Origin: Gammaproteobacteria bacterium
Lineage (GTDB): Bacteria > Pseudomonadota > Gammaproteobacteria > Pseudomonadales > Pseudohongiellaceae
Assembly (NCBI GenBank): GCA_028825335.1
Contig: JAPKAI010000023.1
Location: 1 to 34,025 of the forward strand
Direction: 5' to 3'
DNA: 34,025 nucleotides
Shown: positions 2,234-24,139 of the stretch, one piece after another
Position numbering within the stretch: position 1 is the first letter of the stretch
Layout of the letters: each line of letters begins with the position of its first letter
Translations under genes and position numbers: made by a program
Notes under the pieces: model-generated
What the model saw: only the letters and a program-made list of their open reading frames with translations
Told to the model about the DNA's origin: nothing
The model's database searches: none

Positions 2234-2632
2234 ATGACAATTGCCTTCAAATATAGCCTGCTCGCCGTTCTTGCCACGCTGCTCAATCTGTCTACACAGG
2301 AAGTAGTGGTTCGAACCTACGATGGCAGTTTCGCCATCTATCTGGCGATGGCGCTTGGCACTCTCGCGGGGCTAGTGAGCAAGTATCTGCTCGATAAGAA
2401 AACTATCTTCCAGTTCATCACCACATCGCATCGCGAAGACTTTATAAAGTTTACTTTGTACGGACTTACTGGCGTTGCGACTACGGCAATATTCTGGAGC
2501 TTCGAGCTCGGCTTCGACTGGCTCATAGGCGGCAAGATCGCCCGGTATATAGGTGCCATCATCGGATTGTCCATCGGATATGGTGTAAAGTATCAGCTTG
2601 ATAAGCGCTATGTATTTGCGCGGCAGGCCTGA
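2234..2632 (+). CDS. GtrA-family small membrane protein
   Basis: The protein has 132 residues with four hydrophobic segments (about 6-25, 34-52, 75-95, 102-122), the size and topology of GtrA proteins. Typical GtrA features are the basic KYLLDKKTIFQF after the second segment and the ending YQLDKRYVF. GtrA proteins sit in the inner membrane and are linked to moving polyprenyl-phosphate-linked sugars across it or to supporting their use. In Mycobacterium tuberculosis the GtrA protein Rv3789 lies directly before dprE1 and dprE2, and the same order is seen here. The next gene starts 20 bases after the stop. No strong ribosome binding site is visible before the ATG. A role in handling polyprenyl-phosphoryl-arabinose is inferred from this neighbourhood. 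Confidence 0.85.
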   Translation: MTIAFKYSLLAVLATLLNLSTQEVVVRTYDGSFAIYLAMALGTLAGLVSKYLLDKKTIFQFITTSHREDFIKFTLYGLTGVATTAIFWSFELGFDWLIGGKIARYIGAIIGLSIGYGVKYQLDKRYVFARQA

Positions 2633-2651
2633 GGGCGACAGGATAAGTTTA

Positions 2652-3977
2652 ATGGAAGCCATGGGCTGGGGGCGTTACCCTAAGACGACAGCAAAATTGA
2701 TTCAGCCTGCGGACTCGCAGGCGCTGCAGAAGTTTATCTCGTCGCAGAAGAAATCGGCTTCGTGCATTAGCCGTGGTTCCGGTCGCAGCTACGGCGATAG
2801 CGCGCTCTCTGAGCAGTTAGTCAGTAGCCGATTCTTAGATAACTTCCTCGAACTCGATGAACAGCAGAAGGTCCTTCGCTGTGGCGCGGGCGTAAAGCTA
2901 GGCGACATACTCAGTGTCTGTATCCCTCGAGGCCTTTTTCTTCCCGTACTGCCTGGGACAAATGCCGTAAGCGTAGGTGGTGCCATAGCTGCCGATGTCC
3001 ACGGAAAGAATCACCACCTAGACGGCAGCTTCTGCACTCACGTTAAGAAAATCAACCTCGTGCTGGCATCGGGGGAATTGGTGACTTGTAGTGAGCAGGA
3101 GAACGCCGAGCTATTTCGCGCGACTTGCGGAGGCATGGGACTCACCGGAGTAATAGTCGACGCGAGCCTGTCTCTCGACTCTATCTCTAGTAGCTACATC
3201 GACCAACGAAGCCTTGTTGCCAACAACCTCAGAGAATGCTTCGAACACATAGAAGACAACGCAAACAGCAAATACTCTGTCGCCTGGCTGGATTGCCTAG
3301 CCACTGATAAGAATTTGGGCCGGTCCGTCTTGTATTTAGGTGAGCACTCCGCATCGAAGAATAGAAAAACTGACACCATGTATCGCGAAAGATCCGGCCT
3401 AGGCATTCCCTTCTATACTCCATCATTTCTCCTCAACAAAACGACAATGTCTCTCTTTAATGCGAGTTACTTTGGCGTACAGAAAAGAAAGAAGAGTGCC
3501 GCTACTCTAGATTGTGACAATTACTTCTTCCCGCTCGACAGTATCCCGAATTGGAATCGCCTGTATGGGTCGAAAGGCTTTCTACAATATCAGTTTGTTA
3601 TTCCCAGCGATGGCGCGTTTGAGGGTATAACATCTGTTTTAGAAAAAATATCTGAGAAGGGAAAAGGCTCTTTCCTCACCGTATTAAAGAAATTTGGTGA
3701 GGCGAATGAGAACCTATTGTCATTTCCCAAATCCGGCTATACGCTGACCCTAGACTTCAAGAATGAACTTGCTTTGTTTCCATTATTAGAAGAACTGGAT
3801 CGGATCGTATTGGCTCACGATGGTAGACTCTATCTCGCTAAAGATGCCCGCATGAGTGAGGAAGTGTTTAAGGCGAGCTATCCGAACTGGGAAAGGTTTA
3901 TGACTATCAAGAACAAATATGACCCAGGCAATTGTTTTGCGTCGTTACAATCAAACAGACTGGGATTGACCCAATGA
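2652..3977 (+). CDS. dprE1: DprE1-like FAD-dependent decaprenylphosphoryl-ribose 2'-oxidase
   Basis: The product has 441 residues, close to mycobacterial DprE1. It starts with an FAD-binding PCMH domain: SRGSGRSYGDSAL near residue 40, then VSVGGAIAADVHGKNHH, which carries the histidine matching the FAD-linked His132 of DprE1. The C-terminal substrate domain ends RLYLAKDARM, with Lys397 matching catalytic Lys418, then KYDPGNCFASL. DprE1 oxidises the 2'-hydroxyl of polyprenylphosphoryl-ribose, the first half of the epimerisation that gives arabinose. The ATG at 2652 is preferred because AGGA lies 8-9 bases upstream; an upstream TTG at 2598 would overlap the GtrA gene and adds residues not seen in the family. 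The stop overlaps the next start as ATGA. Position 366 is Thr where M. tuberculosis has Cys387. Confidence 0.9.
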   Translation: MEAMGWGRYPKTTAKLIQPADSQALQKFISSQKKSASCISRGSGRSYGDSALSEQLVSSRFLDNFLELDEQQKVLRCGAGVKLGDILSVCIPRGLFLPVLPGTNAVSVGGAIAADVHGKNHHLDGSFCTHVKKINLVLASGELVTCSEQENAELFRATCGGMGLTGVIVDASLSLDSISSSYIDQRSLVANNLRECFEHIEDNANSKYSVAWLDCLATDKNLGRSVLYLGEHSASKNRKTDTMYRERSGLGIPFYTPSFLLNKTTMSLFNASYFGVQKRKKSAATLDCDNYFFPLDSIPNWNRLYGSKGFLQYQFVIPSDGAFEGITSVLEKISEKGKGSFLTVLKKFGEANENLLSFPKSGYTLTLDFKNELALFPLLEELDRIVLAHDGRLYLAKDARMSEEVFKASYPNWERFMTIKNKYDPGNCFASLQSNRLGLTQ

Positions 3978-4708
3978 GAGTTCTTATCATCGGTGCGACG
4001 TCGGCAATCGCAAAAGCCTCCGCAAGGATTTACGCGGAACTAGGTTGCTCGCTGCATCTGATTGCACGCAGAGAAGATCAGTTAGAGTTGCTGGCCAGCG
4101 ACTTACTCGTGCGCGGAGCATCAAAGGTAAGTTACAGCGTGCTTGATCTCAATAATTTTGCAGAACACGAAAAAACGTTGGACACCGCATTTACTGAACT
4201 AGGGGACGTAGATATAGCGCTCATCTGTCATGGCTCCCTGCCCGATCAAGAAAAGGTTGAAAAAAACTTCAAGCAGGCGCAAAAAGAAATCAACACAAAC
4301 GGAATCAGCATTATCTCATTGCTAACCGAACTCGCAACTAAATTTATCGAACAGCAGCAGGGCACGATCGCTGTCATTACCTCCGTCGCGGGTGACAGAG
4401 GCCGACAGCCCAACTTCGTCTATGGTGCCGCGAAATCCCTTGTTTCAACCTACCTGCAGGGCTTGCGTGGCAAGATGCTGACACACAACGTAAATATAGT
4501 AGACATAAGACCGGGTCTTGTAGATTCGCCTATGACGGCGCAGTTCCCGAAAGGCCCACTGTGGTCTAGCCCAGAACGCATCGCGCAGAAGATTGTGAAA
4601 AGCATCCGCCGTGGCAGTCACACCGTGTACGCACCCGGCTACTGGCGAGTTATCATGTTCGTAGTCAGCGTGATCCCCGAATTTGTTTTCAAACGGCTAA
4701 ATTTCTAA
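3974..4708 (+). CDS. dprE2: DprE2-like short-chain dehydrogenase (decaprenylphosphoryl-2-keto-ribose reductase)
   Basis: A 244-residue classical short-chain dehydrogenase. It has the nucleotide-binding GATSAIAKA at 7-15 and the catalytic triad Ser137 (ITSVAGDRGRQPN), Tyr150 and Lys154 (YGAAK). The run RPGLVDSPMT follows, and the C-terminus is hydrophobic (VIMFVVSVIPEFVF), as expected for an enzyme working on a lipid-linked substrate at the membrane. DprE2 reduces the 2-keto intermediate made by DprE1 to polyprenylphosphoryl-arabinose with NAD(P)H. The ATG at 3974 overlaps the dprE1 stop (ATGA), indicating translational coupling; a TTG further upstream (3932) is rejected. The assignment rests on both sequence and position directly after DprE1; short-chain dehydrogenases alone are hard to assign. 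Confidence 0.85.
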   Translation: MRVLIIGATSAIAKASARIYAELGCSLHLIARREDQLELLASDLLVRGASKVSYSVLDLNNFAEHEKTLDTAFTELGDVDIALICHGSLPDQEKVEKNFKQAQKEINTNGISIISLLTELATKFIEQQQGTIAVITSVAGDRGRQPNFVYGAAKSLVSTYLQGLRGKMLTHNVNIVDIRPGLVDSPMTAQFPKGPLWSSPERIAQKIVKSIRRGSHTVYAPGYWRVIMFVVSVIPEFVFKRLNF

Positions 4709-4732
4709 ACAGAGAAGTCCCTCAGACTCAAC

Positions 4733-6163
4733 GTGCCAAACTCACTCAACCAATCAACGCTCTACGTCGACCTCGACGGCACCGTAATCAAAACGGACCT
4801 CCTGTACGAGTCGATTTTGTTATTGCTCAAGAAAAGTATTTTCCAAGCGCTGTTGATTCCTATTTGGCTAATTAAAGGAAAAGCGAATCTAAAGCATCAA
4901 TTATCCAAACGCGTTCACATTCCCGTAGAGTTACTGCCGCTGAATACTGAATTCAACGACTATCTGAAAAACGAAGTAGAACGTGGACGCAACATCGTAC
5001 TTATTTCGGCATCAAGTCAACTAGCGGTAAGACAGGTGAGTGATCACTTAGGGTTGTTCATCGACGCCATGGGTAGCGACGAAGATCACAACCTGAAATC
5101 GAAGAACAAGGTGACGCGGATACTGCAGCTAGACCCGGGAGGCGATTTCATCTACGCAGGAAACTCGAAAGACGATATCGCCGTGTGGTCTGAAGCTAGC
5201 GAAGTTATTCTCGTCAACTGCAAAAAGTCGCTCGCTACAAATCTGCAACACGCGAGCGAGAAAATTCAGCATTTCGACGCACCCCAATCGACGCTGAAGA
5301 AATTTTGGCAGTCGATACGACCGCACCAGTGGTTGAAGAACACACTGATATTTCTGCCACTGGCTCTTTCTCACCAATTGAATCAACCGAATCTACTGCT
5401 GCAGGCTTGTGTCGCATTTTTGAGCTTTAGCTTCGTTGCGTCCAGCGTGTACCTACTGAACGATATGCTCGACCTAAATAGCGATCGACAGCATCAGTCG
5501 AAATCGCGGCGACCCTTCGCCTCTGGCGACCTGTCTTTAATCTATGGCTATCTAGGCGCGCCGTTGTTGCTAATTCTCGGTTTCCTAATCGCGTTGTGGC
5601 TACCCACTGAATTTGTATTCGTATTGCTCACCTATTGGTTAATGACAACCGCGTATAGCTTGTTACTGAAAAGCCTGTTTCTAATCGACGTGCTGACCCT
5701 TGCTTCTCTATATACCTGGAGAATCATCGCAGGCTCGGCGGCAATCTCAGTAGTCACCACCTACTATTTGCTCGCCTTCGCGTTCTTCCTATTTTTGGGG
5801 CTCGCGATGGTGAAGCGCTATACGGAATTCCTGAACCTACAGAATCAGGGCAAGTCTTCTATCGAAGGGAGGGGCTACGGCGTGGAGAATCTGCATACCC
5901 TAGCCACCATCGGCAGCGGCTCTGGCCTAATAGCTGTGGCTGTATTCGCGTTCTACATCAACGCACCCGCGACAACCGAGCTCTACAGCAATCCTCTACT
6001 GCTGTGGGCCATCTGCCCTCTTCTTCTCTTCTTGCTATGGCATATCTGGGCGCTCGCGCGGCGCGGAGAACTAGATGAAGACCCCGTTTTGTTCGCACTA
6101 ACAGATCGCCGCAGCCAAATCACTGCTGCTGTGTGTGGCCTAGTTATCTTGCTCGCAATTTAA
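4733..6163 (+). CDS. HAD phosphatase-like / UbiA prenyltransferase fusion (candidate DPPR synthase)
   Basis: The product is 476 residues from a GTG start. Residues 8-180 form a HAD domain: DLDGT at 13-17 (nucleophile Asp13), LISASS near 90 and YAGNSKDDIAVW near 141. Residues 195-476 form a multi-span UbiA domain starting RPHQWLKNTLIFLPL, with the Mg-binding NDMLDLNSD at 243-251 and HQSKSRRPFASG after it. The RPxQWxKN and NDxxDxxxD pattern fits the branch that includes Rv3806c, which joins PRPP to decaprenyl phosphate (decaprenylphosphoryl-5-phosphoribose synthase). The fused HAD domain could supply the 5'-dephosphorylation done by a separate protein in mycobacteria; this is inference. The gene follows DprE2 by 24 bases and is the last of the cluster. 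No good ribosome binding site is visible. Confidence 0.85.
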   Translation: MPNSLNQSTLYVDLDGTVIKTDLLYESILLLLKKSIFQALLIPIWLIKGKANLKHQLSKRVHIPVELLPLNTEFNDYLKNEVERGRNIVLISASSQLAVRQVSDHLGLFIDAMGSDEDHNLKSKNKVTRILQLDPGGDFIYAGNSKDDIAVWSEASEVILVNCKKSLATNLQHASEKIQHFDAPQSTLKKFWQSIRPHQWLKNTLIFLPLALSHQLNQPNLLLQACVAFLSFSFVASSVYLLNDMLDLNSDRQHQSKSRRPFASGDLSLIYGYLGAPLLLILGFLIALWLPTEFVFVLLTYWLMTTAYSLLLKSLFLIDVLTLASLYTWRIIAGSAAISVVTTYYLLAFAFFLFLGLAMVKRYTEFLNLQNQGKSSIEGRGYGVENLHTLATIGSGSGLIAVAVFAFYINAPATTELYSNPLLLWAICPLLLFLLWHIWALARRGELDEDPVLFALTDRRSQITAAVCGLVILLAI

Positions 6164-7061: not shown

Positions 7062-7739
7062 CTACTTCATAATCATGAAGCTTTCTGCAATTGGGTTCCA
7101 GCGGCTAGGCTTGTCGATTTTCGTTATCTTCATCGGCTTTAGAACTGTCGGTTCTAACAAGGCTTCGAACCGCTCTACATCCTGATTGCTAGGGTCTAAC
7201 CATCTTGAGACTAAGTCTTCATCTTCGAAATCTATCATCAACGGCAGTGACTTGGGATGAATCTCGTCCCACTGCGGGCTCAGGGGCGGCAGTGTAATGA
7301 TAGACACGGAATAGATTACCTCGCCGCTTTCCTTGTTTAGATACTCTTTAAACAAACCACCGAACGCGATGGCTGAATCTTCTAACTCGATCATATGGTA
7401 GGTCTTTTTATCACCCAAGCCTTCTATGAAGGCGCTGGCAGGAATCAGGCACCTCGACTCTCGAAAGGGCTTGTAGGCAAGGGCGCGCTTGCTAGAGAGC
7501 TTGTCTGAACGCGAGTTGAAGCTGGCGTATTTGTAGTTGGGTTTTAGCGTCTCATTGTCCAGAAACAGCCACCACGTGGCTGTAGAAACCACCCGCTCTC
7601 CAGAGCGCTCATGAACTATCGCGATGTCGCTACCTGGCGCAATGTCGCGACTGGCATGTTCATCATAGAGTTCTATGCCCAGAGCCTTGCAGAGCCACTG
7701 CACTTGGGGACTATCGATCAGATTAAATCTTCCACACAC
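7062..7739 (-). CDS. SRAP / YedK (HMCES) family abasic-site processing protein
   Basis: 225 residues from a GTG start, beginning MCGRF so that Cys2 is exposed after methionine removal. The catalytic set of YedK is present at nearly the same positions: Cys2, Asn75 and Arg77 (SFNSRSD), Glu106 (ASAFIEG) and His161 (EIHPKSLPLMI). The family forms a stable thiazolidine crosslink between Cys2 and abasic sites in single-stranded DNA, shielding them. The usual GFYEW is replaced here by AFIEGL and HDRMP by HPKSLP, so this is a divergent member. It is divergent from the tannase-family gene and 39 bases ahead of fghA on the same strand. Confidence 0.88.
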   Translation of the reverse strand: MCGRFNLIDSPQVQWLCKALGIELYDEHASRDIAPGSDIAIVHERSGERVVSTATWWLFLDNETLKPNYKYASFNSRSDKLSSKRALAYKPFRESRCLIPASAFIEGLGDKKTYHMIELEDSAIAFGGLFKEYLNKESGEVIYSVSIITLPPLSPQWDEIHPKSLPLMIDFEDEDLVSRWLDPSNQDVERFEALLEPTVLKPMKITKIDKPSRWNPIAESFMIMK

Positions 7740-19864: not shown

Positions 19865-21973
19865 ATGAAAATAATCAATAAGAACACTACTCGCGCACTT
19901 TTCACGTCCGCCCTAGTTTTGCTACTCGCAGCCTGCAATGGAGAGAGCACTGTGCCTGCAGACTCTGTCGCTTCGGTGACTTTTAGCTCGCAGGCGGAAG
20001 AAGGAGCGACAGCATTCGCCAGCAACTGTGCTGCCTGCCATGGCGCGAGCCTAGAGGGCACTACACTGGGGCCACTACTCTCCGGCAATTCTTTCCTGCA
20101 GCGATGGGGCACACAGACTCCAGCCCTGCTATTAAACAATATTCAAGCAAATATGCCTCCAGGTGGCAACGACGGTATAAGCGATGAGGATTACACCAAT
20201 ATCGTCGCGCATATGTTGTCCTTCAACGGCGTTGACACGATTACCGAAGCGCTCACGGCGAGCACAAATTTTGAAATCGCCGACAATATCTCTCAGGTTG
20301 TTGCACGGCGCTCACGCCCTGAGCCAGAGCCTCCTCAAGGCATAACCGTCGCCGGCACCGTAGAAAAATTCACCCCGATTACCGATGCCATGCTGGAGAA
20401 TCCAGATCCAGCCGACTGGCCTATGCACCGCCGTAACTACTACGGCCACAGTTACAGCCCACTGAGCCAAATCAACACTGACAACGTTAAGGGCATGACC
20501 CTAGCATGGGTTTGGAACATGTATGAGGGCGATTCGGAACCTGCCCCGTTGGTCTATGGCGGCATCATGTATCTGATTAACCCAGGCAATGTCATCCAGG
20601 CTCTGGACGCTGCTACCGGCGAGTTGATCTGGGAGAACTGGGCAGGCCCGGCGAATCGTCAGGACATGCGCAATATCGCTATCTATAACGACAAGATCAT
20701 TCAAGCTACTACCGATGCACGCTTGATAGCACTCGATGCGCGCACTGGCGAGCAGATCTGGGAGACCGAGGTTGCCGATGCCAGTAAGGGCTTCTCTAAT
20801 TCCAGTGGACCCATCGTTGCAGACGGCAAGGTCATTCTTGGCCTCGCGGGTTGTGCACGCTACATACCCGAAGACTGCTATATAAGCGCTCACGACGCCA
20901 ACACTGGCGAGCTTGAGTGGCGCTTCAACACTATCGCCAAAGCGAATGAACCCGGCGGCGATACCTGGGGCGAGCTACCCGATTTATTTCGTGCTGGTGG
21001 CGAGACATGGATTACTGGCAGCTACGACCCCGACCTCAAGCTTACCTATTGGGGTACTGCGCAGCAGAAGCCTTGGGTACCTGTTAGTCGTCACCTGACG
21101 ATCGATGACGTAGGTCTGTTCACAAATTCGACGGTTGCAGTGAGCACCGACACGGGCGAGCTTGATTGGTTCTTCCAACACGTTCCAGCTGAAGCGCTAG
21201 ATCTAGATGAAGTGTTCGAGCGCATCCTGGTAAATCGTGGCGATGACAAATTAGTGTTCTCGCTAGGCAAGTACGGCATTCTGTGGAAGAACGATAGAGT
21301 CTCGGGTGAATTTCAGGACTACAAGGAAACTGTTTTTCAAAATGCCTTCACCGACATCGACGATAAGACTGGACTGGTTACCTATCGAGAAGATATTCAG
21401 AATGCGAAGCTAAACGAGTGGACATCAGCCTGTCCAAGCAGCGCTGGCGGCAAGGACTGGCATTCGATGACCTACCATCCGCCTACTGGAACCATGATCG
21501 CACCGCTTAGCCAGACCTGTCTGGAGAACGCGGCGCGGGAAGTGGCGTTAGTACAGGGTGGTGGTGGACTAGCTGCTAGCCGCAAATTCTTCGAGATGCC
21601 CGGAACGGATGGCAACCTTGGCAAGATCGGTGCCTATAACGTAGATACCATGGAAGAAGTGTGGAGCCATCAGCAACGCGCCTCTTTTCATACGGGCACG
21701 ATGTCTACCGGCGGCAATCTGGTATTCGTTGGCGATCTGGATCGACGCTTCAAGGCCTTCGATGTAACTACCGGCGAGATCGTTTGGGAAACTAGACTAG
21801 GAACGTCTGTGCAAGGCCACCCCGTTTCCTTCGCTGTAGATGGCAAGCAATATATCGCGGTAACGGCAGCGCTTGGTGGAACTAGCCCGCGCGCCGTGCC
21901 AGGTGTAATTCTTACTGAGATCAAGTATCCGCGCTCAGGAAATGCAGTCTATGTATTTGCTCTTCCTGACTAG
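19865..21973 (+). CDS. Cytochrome c / PQQ-type quinoprotein dehydrogenase, lipoprotein (copy 1)
   Basis: 702 residues with GAGG before the ATG. The lipobox LAAC (Cys24) makes it a lipoprotein. A class I cytochrome c domain follows: CAACH at 55-59 and axial Met97 (ANMPPGG). From about residue 180 an eight-blade PQQ propeller begins (NYYGHSYSPLSQINTDNV) with W-docking repeats such as ALDAATGELIWE and [12 protein letters not shown]. By comparison with methanol dehydrogenase, the PQQ-stacking Trp (W382, GGETW) and catalytic Asp (D446, HVPAEALD) are kept. The calcium-ligand Asn is Gln (Q400, GTAQQKPW) and the vicinal Cys-Cys pair is missing. It should oxidise an alcohol or similar compound in the periplasm and pass electrons to its own haem. 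An N-terminal haem domain is unusual; quinohaemoprotein alcohol dehydrogenases carry it at the C-terminus. Confidence 0.9.
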   Translation: MKIINKNTTRALFTSALVLLLAACNGESTVPADSVASVTFSSQAEEGATAFASNCAACHGASLEGTTLGPLLSGNSFLQRWGTQTPALLLNNIQANMPPGGNDGISDEDYTNIVAHMLSFNGVDTITEALTASTNFEIADNISQVVARRSRPEPEPPQGITVAGTVEKFTPITDAMLENPDPADWPMHRRNYYGHSYSPLSQINTDNVKGMTLAWVWNMYEGDSEPAPLVYGGIMYLINPGNVIQALDAATGELIWENWAGPANRQDMRNIAIYNDKIIQATTDARLIALDARTGEQIWETEVADASKGFSNSSGPIVADGKVILGLAGCARYIPEDCYISAHDANTGELEWRFNTIAKANEPGGDTWGELPDLFRAGGETWITGSYDPDLKLTYWGTAQQKPWVPVSRHLTIDDVGLFTNSTVAVSTDTGELDWFFQHVPAEALDLDEVFERILVNRGDDKLVFSLGKYGILWKNDRVSGEFQDYKETVFQNAFTDIDDKTGLVTYREDIQNAKLNEWTSACPSSAGGKDWHSMTYHPPTGTMIAPLSQTCLENAAREVALVQGGGGLAASRKFFEMPGTDGNLGKIGAYNVDTMEEVWSHQQRASFHTGTMSTGGNLVFVGDLDRRFKAFDVTTGEIVWETRLGTSVQGHPVSFAVDGKQYIAVTAALGGTSPRAVPGVILTEIKYPRSGNAVYVFALPD

Positions 21974-22033
21974 ACACGATTAGTCGCCATGAGCAGAGTT
22001 CAACGCCTATAACCACAAGGGGTATTGCTAAAA

Positions 22034-24139
22034 ATGAAATTAAGAAATCATGCATTAGGAATACTTGGGTTGGGCCTGCTCGTTGCCTGCGGCGGTGAGA
22101 ACGAGATTGAAGAAGAGAGTGCAGCCACTTCTGTTGCCAGCTTCAGCTCACAGGCGGAAACTGGAGTCCGGGCTTACTCCGCGAACTGCGCAGCCTGCCA
22201 TGGTGCTAGTCTCGAAGGCAGCGCGCTAGGCCCGATACTAAGCGGGCAAGCATTTCTTGCAAGTTGGGGGATGCAATCGCCGGGTGACTTCTATAACTAC
22301 ATCAAAGCGAACATGCCTCCGGGTGAGAATGCTGCTATTAGCGATGATGACTATATCAATATCGTTGCTCACGTCATGCGCAGAAGCGGAGTTGCCGACA
22401 GCAATCCCCTACTAACAGCAAGTTCTGATTACCCCTTAGCGATCAATATTCCCGGTGCAGCGAATTTGATTGCCCCACCTGAAAGCATTGCACCTACCGG
22501 TGTAATCCTTCCTGGCACTGTCGAAAATTTTCAGCCGATCTCCGATACGATGCTCACCAACCCGGCGCCTGGCGACTGGCCGATGTTGCGCCGCAACTAT
22601 CAGGCCTGGAGCTACAGTCCTCTCGATCAGATCAATGTGGACAACGTGGGTGACCTGCGACTGGAATGGGTCTGGAGTATGCACGATGGCGACTCGGAGC
22701 CTTCGCCGCTGGTGTACGACGGTACCATCTATCTGATCAATCCTAGCAACATAATTCAAGCATTGGATGGGAAGACTGGCGAGCTAATCTGGGAGCATCA
22801 CGCGGGCCCTAAGGATAGCGAGGACATGCGCAACATCGCCATCTATGAGGATAAAATTATTCACGCCACAACCGATGCTCGACTGTTGGCACTCGATGCG
22901 CGTACAGGCGAACCGGTATGGGAAACAGCAATCGCCGATGGCAGCAAGGGCTTCGGGAATTCCAGCGGACCTATAGTAGCCGACGGTAAAATCATTCAAG
23001 GCCTGTTAGGTTGCTCTCGCTACATCGAGGAAGACTGCTATATAAGCGCGGTAGATGCAGACAACGGTGAGGTGCTATGGCGCTTCAACACCATAGCCGA
23101 AAGTGGTGATTCTGGCGGTGATACTTGGGGCAACATAGATGACATATTTCGTGCGGGCGGCGAGACTTGGATTACAGGAAGTTACGATCCTGAGCTAAAA
23201 ATCACTTATTGGGGAACCGCACAGCAAAAACCTTGGATGCCGGCCAGTCGAAATCTCTCCATCTTCGATACCGGTCTATTCACCAATTCCACCGTAGCCA
23301 TCAATGTGGATGACGGCTCTCTCGATTGGTTTTTCCAGCACGTGCCCGCCGAGGCGCTGGATCTTGACGAGGTGTTCGAACGTGTCCTGATTGACCGTGA
23401 AGATGACAAACTCGTTTTCTCAATCGGCAAGCACGGCATTCTGTGGAAGCACGATAGAGTGAGTGGTGAGTTCATCTCCCATCTGGAGACTATCTTCCAG
23501 AACGCGTTCACCAACATAGACTCTGTGACTGGGGCTGTAACCTATCGTGATGACATTGCCAATGCGCAACTGGACGAATGGATAAGCGTTTGCCCGAGCA
23601 CAGCCGGTGGAAAAGACTGGCACTCTATGACCTATCACGAACCTAGCGCGAATCTGATTATTCCTCTGAGTCAGTCTTGCTTGGAAATATCGGCACGAGA
23701 AGTGCCGCTGGTGCAGGGCGCGGGTGGCACAGCGGCAAATCGCCGCTGGTTCGAAATGCCAGGTTCAGACGGTAATATGGGCAAACTCGCAGCATATAAC
23801 GTAGATTCTATGAAAGAAGTCTGGAGTTACGAACAGCGAGCGGCTTTCTTGACAGGAACTATATCCACAGCGGGAAACCTTGTGTTCGTCGGCGACCTCG
23901 ATCGGCGCTTCCGAGCCTTCGATGCACGTAATGGTGAGATACTCTGGGAGACACGGCTTGGCACATCAGTGCAGGGCCACCCTGTTAGCTTTGCCATAGA
24001 CGGCAAGCAGTATATTGCAGTGACTACCGCGATGGGTGCGCGCGGAGTTAGTCCACGAACTGTCCCACGAGTTGTCGCGCCGGATATCAGGCATCCAGGC
24101 AACGGCAACGCACTGTATGTTTTTAGTCTTTCGGACTAA
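22034..24139 (+). CDS. Cytochrome c / PQQ-type quinoprotein dehydrogenase, lipoprotein (copy 2)
   Basis: 701 residues from the ATG at 22034; an in-frame TTG at 22025 lies only three bases after the AAGGGG ribosome binding site and is less likely. It is a tandem paralogue of the previous gene along its whole length: lipobox LVAC (Cys19), [63 protein letters not shown] and [14 protein letters not shown]. The same active-site pattern (Trp and Asp kept, Asn replaced by Gln, no Cys pair) is present, so the change predates duplication. The region between the haem and propeller domains differs most. The two genes are 60 bases apart in the same direction. Confidence 0.9.

Follow-up and report, generated by a model that had tools for sequence, protein, structure and literature searches.

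We analysed a window of 34,025 nucleotides (G000:C117:1-34025), which is part of the 2.97 Mb draft genome, 93.14% complete, of a gammaproteobacterium of the family Pseudohongiellaceae. The subject of this analysis is a cassette of four adjoining genes, all on the + strand at 2234-6163 of the window:

2234-2632, + strand: GtrA-family small membrane protein of 132 amino acids (aa), the proposed flippase for polyprenyl-phospho-pentose
2652-3977, + strand: DprE1-like oxidase with flavin adenine dinucleotide (FAD), a putative polyprenyl-phospho-ribose 2'-oxidase, ATG start, 441 aa
3974-4708, + strand: DprE2-like reductase of the short-chain dehydrogenase/reductase (SDR) type, predicted to turn the 2'-keto form into the arabino form, 244 aa
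4733-6163, + strand: HAD-UbiA fusion of the ORF15 type, with a predicted N-terminal phosphoribose phosphatase and a predicted polyprenyl-phosphate phosphoribosyltransferase, GTG start, 476 aa

If the oxidase gene begins with the ATG at position 2652, 19 bases separate it from the GtrA gene; with a TTG start at 2598, its frame would be longer. The oxidase and reductase genes overlap as ATGA at 3974-3977, and 24 bases lie between the reductase and the HAD-UbiA gene. These coordinates confirm the tight run, the order GtrA-DprE1-DprE2-HAD-UbiA and the overlap described in an earlier note on this DNA. Gene identity, gene order, catalytic residues and conservation are established in this analysis. 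The cassette very probably makes and exports polyprenyl-phospho-D-arabinofuranose; its chemistry, the identity of the sugar, the flippase role and the acceptor are what we infer from the sequence. Profile searches with the four proteins found homology far beyond chance for all of them, with NCBIfam scores of 157-577 bits.

The HAD-UbiA fusion matches NCBIfam PRK08238 over residues 5-476 with 577.5 bits (cut-off 351). Its HAD half is weak when taken alone in Pfam (23.2 bits, cut-off 27), and the sole solved-structure matches of its UbiA half at E 0.001 are 8j8j and 8j8k, a decaprenyl-phosphate phosphoribosyltransferase. The HAD half carries DLDGT. The marks RPxQWxKN and NDxxDxxxD, which the earlier note had ascribed to the UbiA domain, are found there as RPHQWLKN and NDMLDLNSD. 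We aligned 15 fusions: that of the window, plus 14 from the 27 public loci whose UbiA is of fusion size. Residues D13, D15, T17, K126 and D148 of HAD and N243, D244, D247, D251, R362 and E365 of UbiA are invariant in all 15. For the Citrobacter enzyme ORF15, which has the same HAD-UbiA build, lipid-phospho-ribose synthesis was demonstrated biochemically, and residues N247, D248, D251, D255, R366 and E369 were probed by mutation (PMC11127046). The catalytic residues of the window UbiA are equally spaced, as compared by the residue numbers of that paper and not by an alignment with ORF15.

The best NCBIfam model for the oxidase is DprE1 with 407.6 bits, followed by a model at 80 bits. Likewise, its best solved-structure match is DprE1 (4aut, E 1.3e-81), and the next family follows at 1e-11. 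Our oxidase tree comprises 104 rows, of which 100 are DprE1 rows including the Mycobacterium smegmatis enzyme and four are outgroup oxidases. The window oxidase sits within the DprE1 group, from which three outgroup oxidases are separate (support 98). The fourth outgroup row (L297_out_3), which is included in this tree, falls inside the DprE1 group with a branch length of 10. We take this placement as an artefact because its frame is truncated where the fetched stretch ends and its branch is long. The M. smegmatis DprE1 row is also long-branched. A placement of the window oxidase outside the DprE1 clade was looked for and not seen. The genus oxidases share a group (support 99) with counterparts from Pseudomonas, Thiothrix, Burkholderiales and Campylobacterota. 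Outside it fall the oxidases of other families of the order and of the same-family genome G080. This pattern hints at a possible horizontal transfer. In the alignment with its solved-structure match, the window oxidase has a threonine at the position of the DprE1 cysteine known as the covalent target of benzothiazinones.

The best solved-structure match of the reductase is DprE2 (21gq_C, E 1.9e-28; the next is at 2.4e-13). Its best NCBIfam model is PRK07102 (NF005489) with 282.9 bits, above the cut-off of 267, and DprE2 comes second. The same ranking is observed in 8/8 other cassette reductases scanned. These were sampled from both of the two deep groups into which the cassette reductases split, in a tree with few outgroups (the two distant ones are identical in sequence) and no mycobacterial DprE2 row. 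Because PRK07102 is the best model for 9/9 cassette reductases scanned, this function-unnamed family looks like the non-mycobacterial DprE2 partner.

The small membrane protein matches NCBIfam gtrA_1 (NF037976) with 156.8 bits (cut-off 50) and Pfam PF04138 with 35.1 bits (cut-off 26.1), and is the single PF04138 match of its genome at E 0.001. In 19/30 genus loci examined, the window included, DprE1 is closely preceded by a GtrA match. The presumed flippase next to these enzymes varies: GtrA is found in the window, an LPG_synthase_TM protein (140.8 bits, locus L042) precedes UbiA in G047, and a weak EamA-like match (23 bits, under the cut-off) follows DprE2 in G039. Membrane open reading frames (ORFs) of similar size occupy the LPG_synthase_TM position in G049, G053, G054 and G057. 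In G035, a genome of the same genus, GtrA and DprE1 form one open frame of 585 aa (L041:6629-8386), unlike the two frames of the window; either the genes are naturally fused there or the sequence contains an error.

HAD-UbiA is found in 32/36 same-genus genomes and in 6/21 other genomes of the order, and the counts for DprE1 (E < 1e-80) are the same. The genus genomes that lack a UbiA match (G006, G008, G019, G031) or a DprE1 match (G001, G008, G019, G031) are 65 to 85% complete. An order sample of 76 genomes, the own genome included, was searched at E up to 1e-40 for DprE1 and up to 1e-5 for UbiA. DprE1 is present in 19 of them and UbiA in 20; 18 have both. UbiA without a DprE1 match occurs in G070 and G083; G069 and G071 have UbiA matches that are either weak or incomplete. 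In G070, a small membrane ORF and then a PMT_2 protein (64 bits) come after UbiA, an arrangement that might be the one expected of a ribose-type system. In another genome of the order, a DprE1 match has one internal TGA (L260, G068:C55:14917-16206).

A scan of public genomes gave at least 591 pattern matches, at least 588 of them encoding a DprE1 relative. Our locus counts rest on the best 80 of these at least 588 stretches, and many of these loci end at contig ends. They span Proteobacteria, Bacteroidota, Campylobacterota, Nitrospirota, Cyanobacteriota, Actinomycetota and others. DprE1, DprE2 and UbiA occur together in 57, with GtrA as well in 35. UbiA is of fusion size (at least 420 aa) in 27 and shorter in 34, and none was found in 19. 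In 36, an ORF of 400-950 aa with at least six membrane spans lies no more than 1.5 kb from a cassette gene, with spans taken from a simple hydropathy count and ORFs from either strand. These numbers do not support the view of the earlier note that the cassette is remarkable for a Gram-negative. The five best public relatives by DprE1 among the matches listed (L136-L140) are labelled Gammaproteobacteria or Pseudomonadales. Two loci titled as Klebsiella pneumoniae metagenome-assembled genome (MAG), L141 and L182, encode DprE1 proteins 52% and 44% identical to that of the window. As the tree places L141 with a Pseudomonadales MAG, its Klebsiella label is probably wrong.

A comparison of the cassette with known systems places it among the pentofuranose donor systems of PMC11127046. 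In that paper, HAD-UbiA, a MATE flippase and a C-family glycosyltransferase (GT-C) make a ribofuranose system, and the strategy is called widespread. Citrobacter youngae O1/O2 (ORF15 PPPRS, MATE flippase, GT136) shares with the window the HAD fused N-terminally to UbiA. The window differs from it in having DprE1/DprE2 for arabinose, GtrA instead of MATE and no GT-C seen in the cluster. The mycobacterial polyprenyl-phosphoryl-arabinose (DPA) pathway, for which Rv3806c, Rv3807c, Rv3789, DprE1 (Rv3790) and DprE2 (Rv3791) are named (PMC7502851), shares DprE1, DprE2, UbiA homologues, a GtrA-family protein and the order GtrA-DprE1-DprE2. The parallel to Rv3789-Rv3790-Rv3791 drawn in the earlier note holds, with the Rv order read from the numbers. 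However, in the window a HAD fusion replaces Rv3807c, the reductase is nearer to PRK07102, and PF04602 has no match in the genome. The donor route of the DPA pathway is supported, while the fusion unlike Rv3807c and the PRK07102-type reductase speak against the strictly mycobacterial subtype that had been proposed.

Donor systems of this kind are already described in Gram-negatives, among them Nod-factor, pilin and O-antigen systems. In Pseudomonas paraeruginosa, the pilin D-arabinofuranose (D-Araf) genes are PSPA7_6245-6251, together with TfpW, and homologous systems occur in P. syringae (PMC12369383). This system shares with the window a D-Araf donor pathway in a gammaproteobacterium; its PPPRS is without a fused phosphatase according to PMC11127046, unlike the HAD-UbiA of the window. 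In the Gram-negative Azorhizobium caulinodans, noeC, noeH and noeO are orthologues of the mycobacterial DPA genes (PMC5080398), and noeCHOP arabinosylates Nod factors (PMC5080398, PMC2443382). It has a Nod-factor acceptor and a linked proposed transferase, noeP, unlike the window cassette. A D-Araf polysaccharide was also reported from marine Devosia (PMC8707391).

In the proposed pathway, the UbiA half would move 5-phosphoribose from phosphoribosyl pyrophosphate (PRPP) to polyprenyl phosphate, for which undecaprenyl is expected, and the HAD half would take off the 5-phosphate. DprE1 with FAD would then oxidise the 2'-OH, and DprE2 would reduce the ketone to the arabino form. GtrA would flip this product to the periplasmic side; there, a membrane-bound GT-C encoded elsewhere would add D-Araf to an envelope glycan or protein. 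The family assignments, the solved-structure matches, the DprE1 tree, the invariance of the catalytic residues and the co-occurrence of the genes support a supply of polyprenyl-phospho-arabinose via the DprE1/DprE2 route.

Several observations weigh against this pathway. The oxidase stays below the NCBIfam DprE1 equivalog cut-off of 500 bits. The reductase scores 178.8 bits with the DprE2 model, under its equivalog cut-off of 250. The best solved-structure match and the overlap with the DprE1 gene speak for a DprE2-type partner as named in the earlier note, and NCBIfam, where PRK07102 fits better, speaks against it. The UbiA ORF is too short for a HAD fusion in 34/61 UbiA-bearing public loci, and G067 of the order sample has DprE1 and no UbiA match. 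No GtrA lies upstream of DprE1 in 11/30 genus loci (one of the 11 is cut by a contig end), because of which we regard GtrA as a dispensable neighbour of the cassette. Furthermore, the cassette is split in G018, G022, G030 and G033 (L032, L033, L036 and L035), where DprE1-DprE2 still lies beside an inositol-phosphatase gene and HAD-UbiA lies elsewhere. There, HAD-UbiA adjoins a second GT-C-like gene in G018, G022 and G033, and only a short piece of that gene is seen in G030. In G021, DprE1-DprE2 and UbiA are on separate contigs. Such splits would fit four unrelated neighbours that do not form one pathway. Against this, UbiA is also present in 18/19 DprE1 genomes of the order sample, and 57 of the best 80 public loci hold DprE1, DprE2 and UbiA together. 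Because the genes co-occur in this way, we consider a chance neighbourhood close to refuted and scarcely credible.

The cassette would make another pentofuranose, such as unchanged ribose or another epimer, if its oxidase and reductase worked on another carbon or on some other lipid-linked sugar. The preference of the reductase for PRK07102 over DprE2 and the two deep groups of cassette reductases would be consistent with this, as would the Citrobacter O2 xylofuranose (Xylf), which is made with one SDR enzyme (PMC11127046). In the same paper, however, candidate Araf systems carry DprE1/DprE2 homologues, and Xylf systems carry one SDR of the ORF13 type. The best solved relative of the oxidase is DprE1 by 70 orders of magnitude in E, and the other cassette reductases are PRK07102-type as well (8/8 scanned). 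A product other than the arabinose donor is thus quite improbable. As for the acceptor, the pilin of P. paraeruginosa is a precedent for a donor pathway of this kind (PMC12369383), and the arabinose donor of the window could serve a type IV pilin too. No pilin is found by Pfam among 18 window proteins, which is weak evidence, as the pilins of the own genome were not searched and the neighbours of relatives were compared only with window proteins. We regard the pilin as an unlikely acceptor.

The same 18 window proteins, a subset of the window ORFs, include no Pfam match to a glycosyltransferase family, and within this set the statement of the earlier note that no arabinosyltransferase lies in the window holds. 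In the own genome, EmbABC-type transferases (PF04602) have no match at E 1, while the control Corynebacterium glutamicum matched. The search of the genome for C-family transferases gave one PMT_2 match only (E 0.01), a 643-aa protein with 67.8 bits (G000:C134:72243-74171) encoded directly after feoB. It has an Ig-like, Big_7-like stretch at its C-terminus that scores just under the cut-off. This feoB-linked GT-C is found in 34/36 same-genus genomes and weakly in 1/21 others of the order. It is the best guess for the transferase found, and a tentative one. It may possibly be an arabinosyltransferase that adds D-Araf to lipopolysaccharide (LPS) or another envelope glycan. That it would represent a new, cassette-unlinked arabinosyltransferase subfamily placing D-Araf on a core envelope glycan is more doubtful.

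In favour of this candidate, a GtrB search of the own genome at 1e-5 found no match, and none of the genome's three matches to glycosyltransferase family 2 (GT2) has the C-terminal membrane part of GtrB/ArnC. Among the 20 genus genomes at least 90% complete with the feoB-linked GT-C and UbiA (own included), 15 have no full-length GtrB match: in seven the match is partial (about 110 to 206 residues, unclassified) and in eight there is none. Because the GtrB searches found none there, HAD-UbiA is the only recognised polyprenyl-phospho-sugar synthase in at least eight genus genomes. On the other hand, a full-length GtrB match is present in the remaining five. G063 has a relative of the GT-C (425 bits) yet no DprE1 or UbiA match, and in G080 the cassette and this GT-C lie at separate places. 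In some members of the genus, UbiA is paired with another GT-C-like protein. A transferase without a Pfam family could also be missed, as many cassette-linked membrane proteins have none and such transferases of the own genome were not searched for.

A sequence tie between the feoB-linked GT-C and the cassettes was considered, as BLAST (1e-5) links it to four cassette-linked proteins. We rejected this tie as unspecific because several PMT_2 proteins from outside cassette loci outscore the cassette-linked ones on the GT-C profile. E. coli ArnT and YfdI are absent from the match list of this profile. The second GT-C-like protein (L032:6913-8373; PMT_2 23.3 bits, below the cut-off of 26.1) was likewise set aside: a search of the own genome at E 0.1, which had no positive-control genome, found no match to it.

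As comparable gene sets are widespread among bacteria and already described, the cassette is ordinary save for the question of what the sugar is attached to, and it makes no long-standing question newly testable. It extends lipid-linked D-arabinose supply to a further lineage, where this supply seems to be nearly a core trait. The results also point to more fitting names for the function-unnamed families PRK07102 and PRK08238, the latter on the basis of the window fusion, the sole one scanned.

In the genus loci read at length, an inositol-phosphatase-like gene adjoins the cassette on one side. The other flank is in most cases formed by a putative esterase gene or by one resembling 7062-7739 of the window, which encodes a putative SRAP protein. 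Farther along the window, two adjacent look-alike ORFs are found at 19865-21973 and 22025-24139. The former encodes, by Pfam, a pyrroloquinoline quinone (PQQ) beta-propeller protein with a cytochrome c part.

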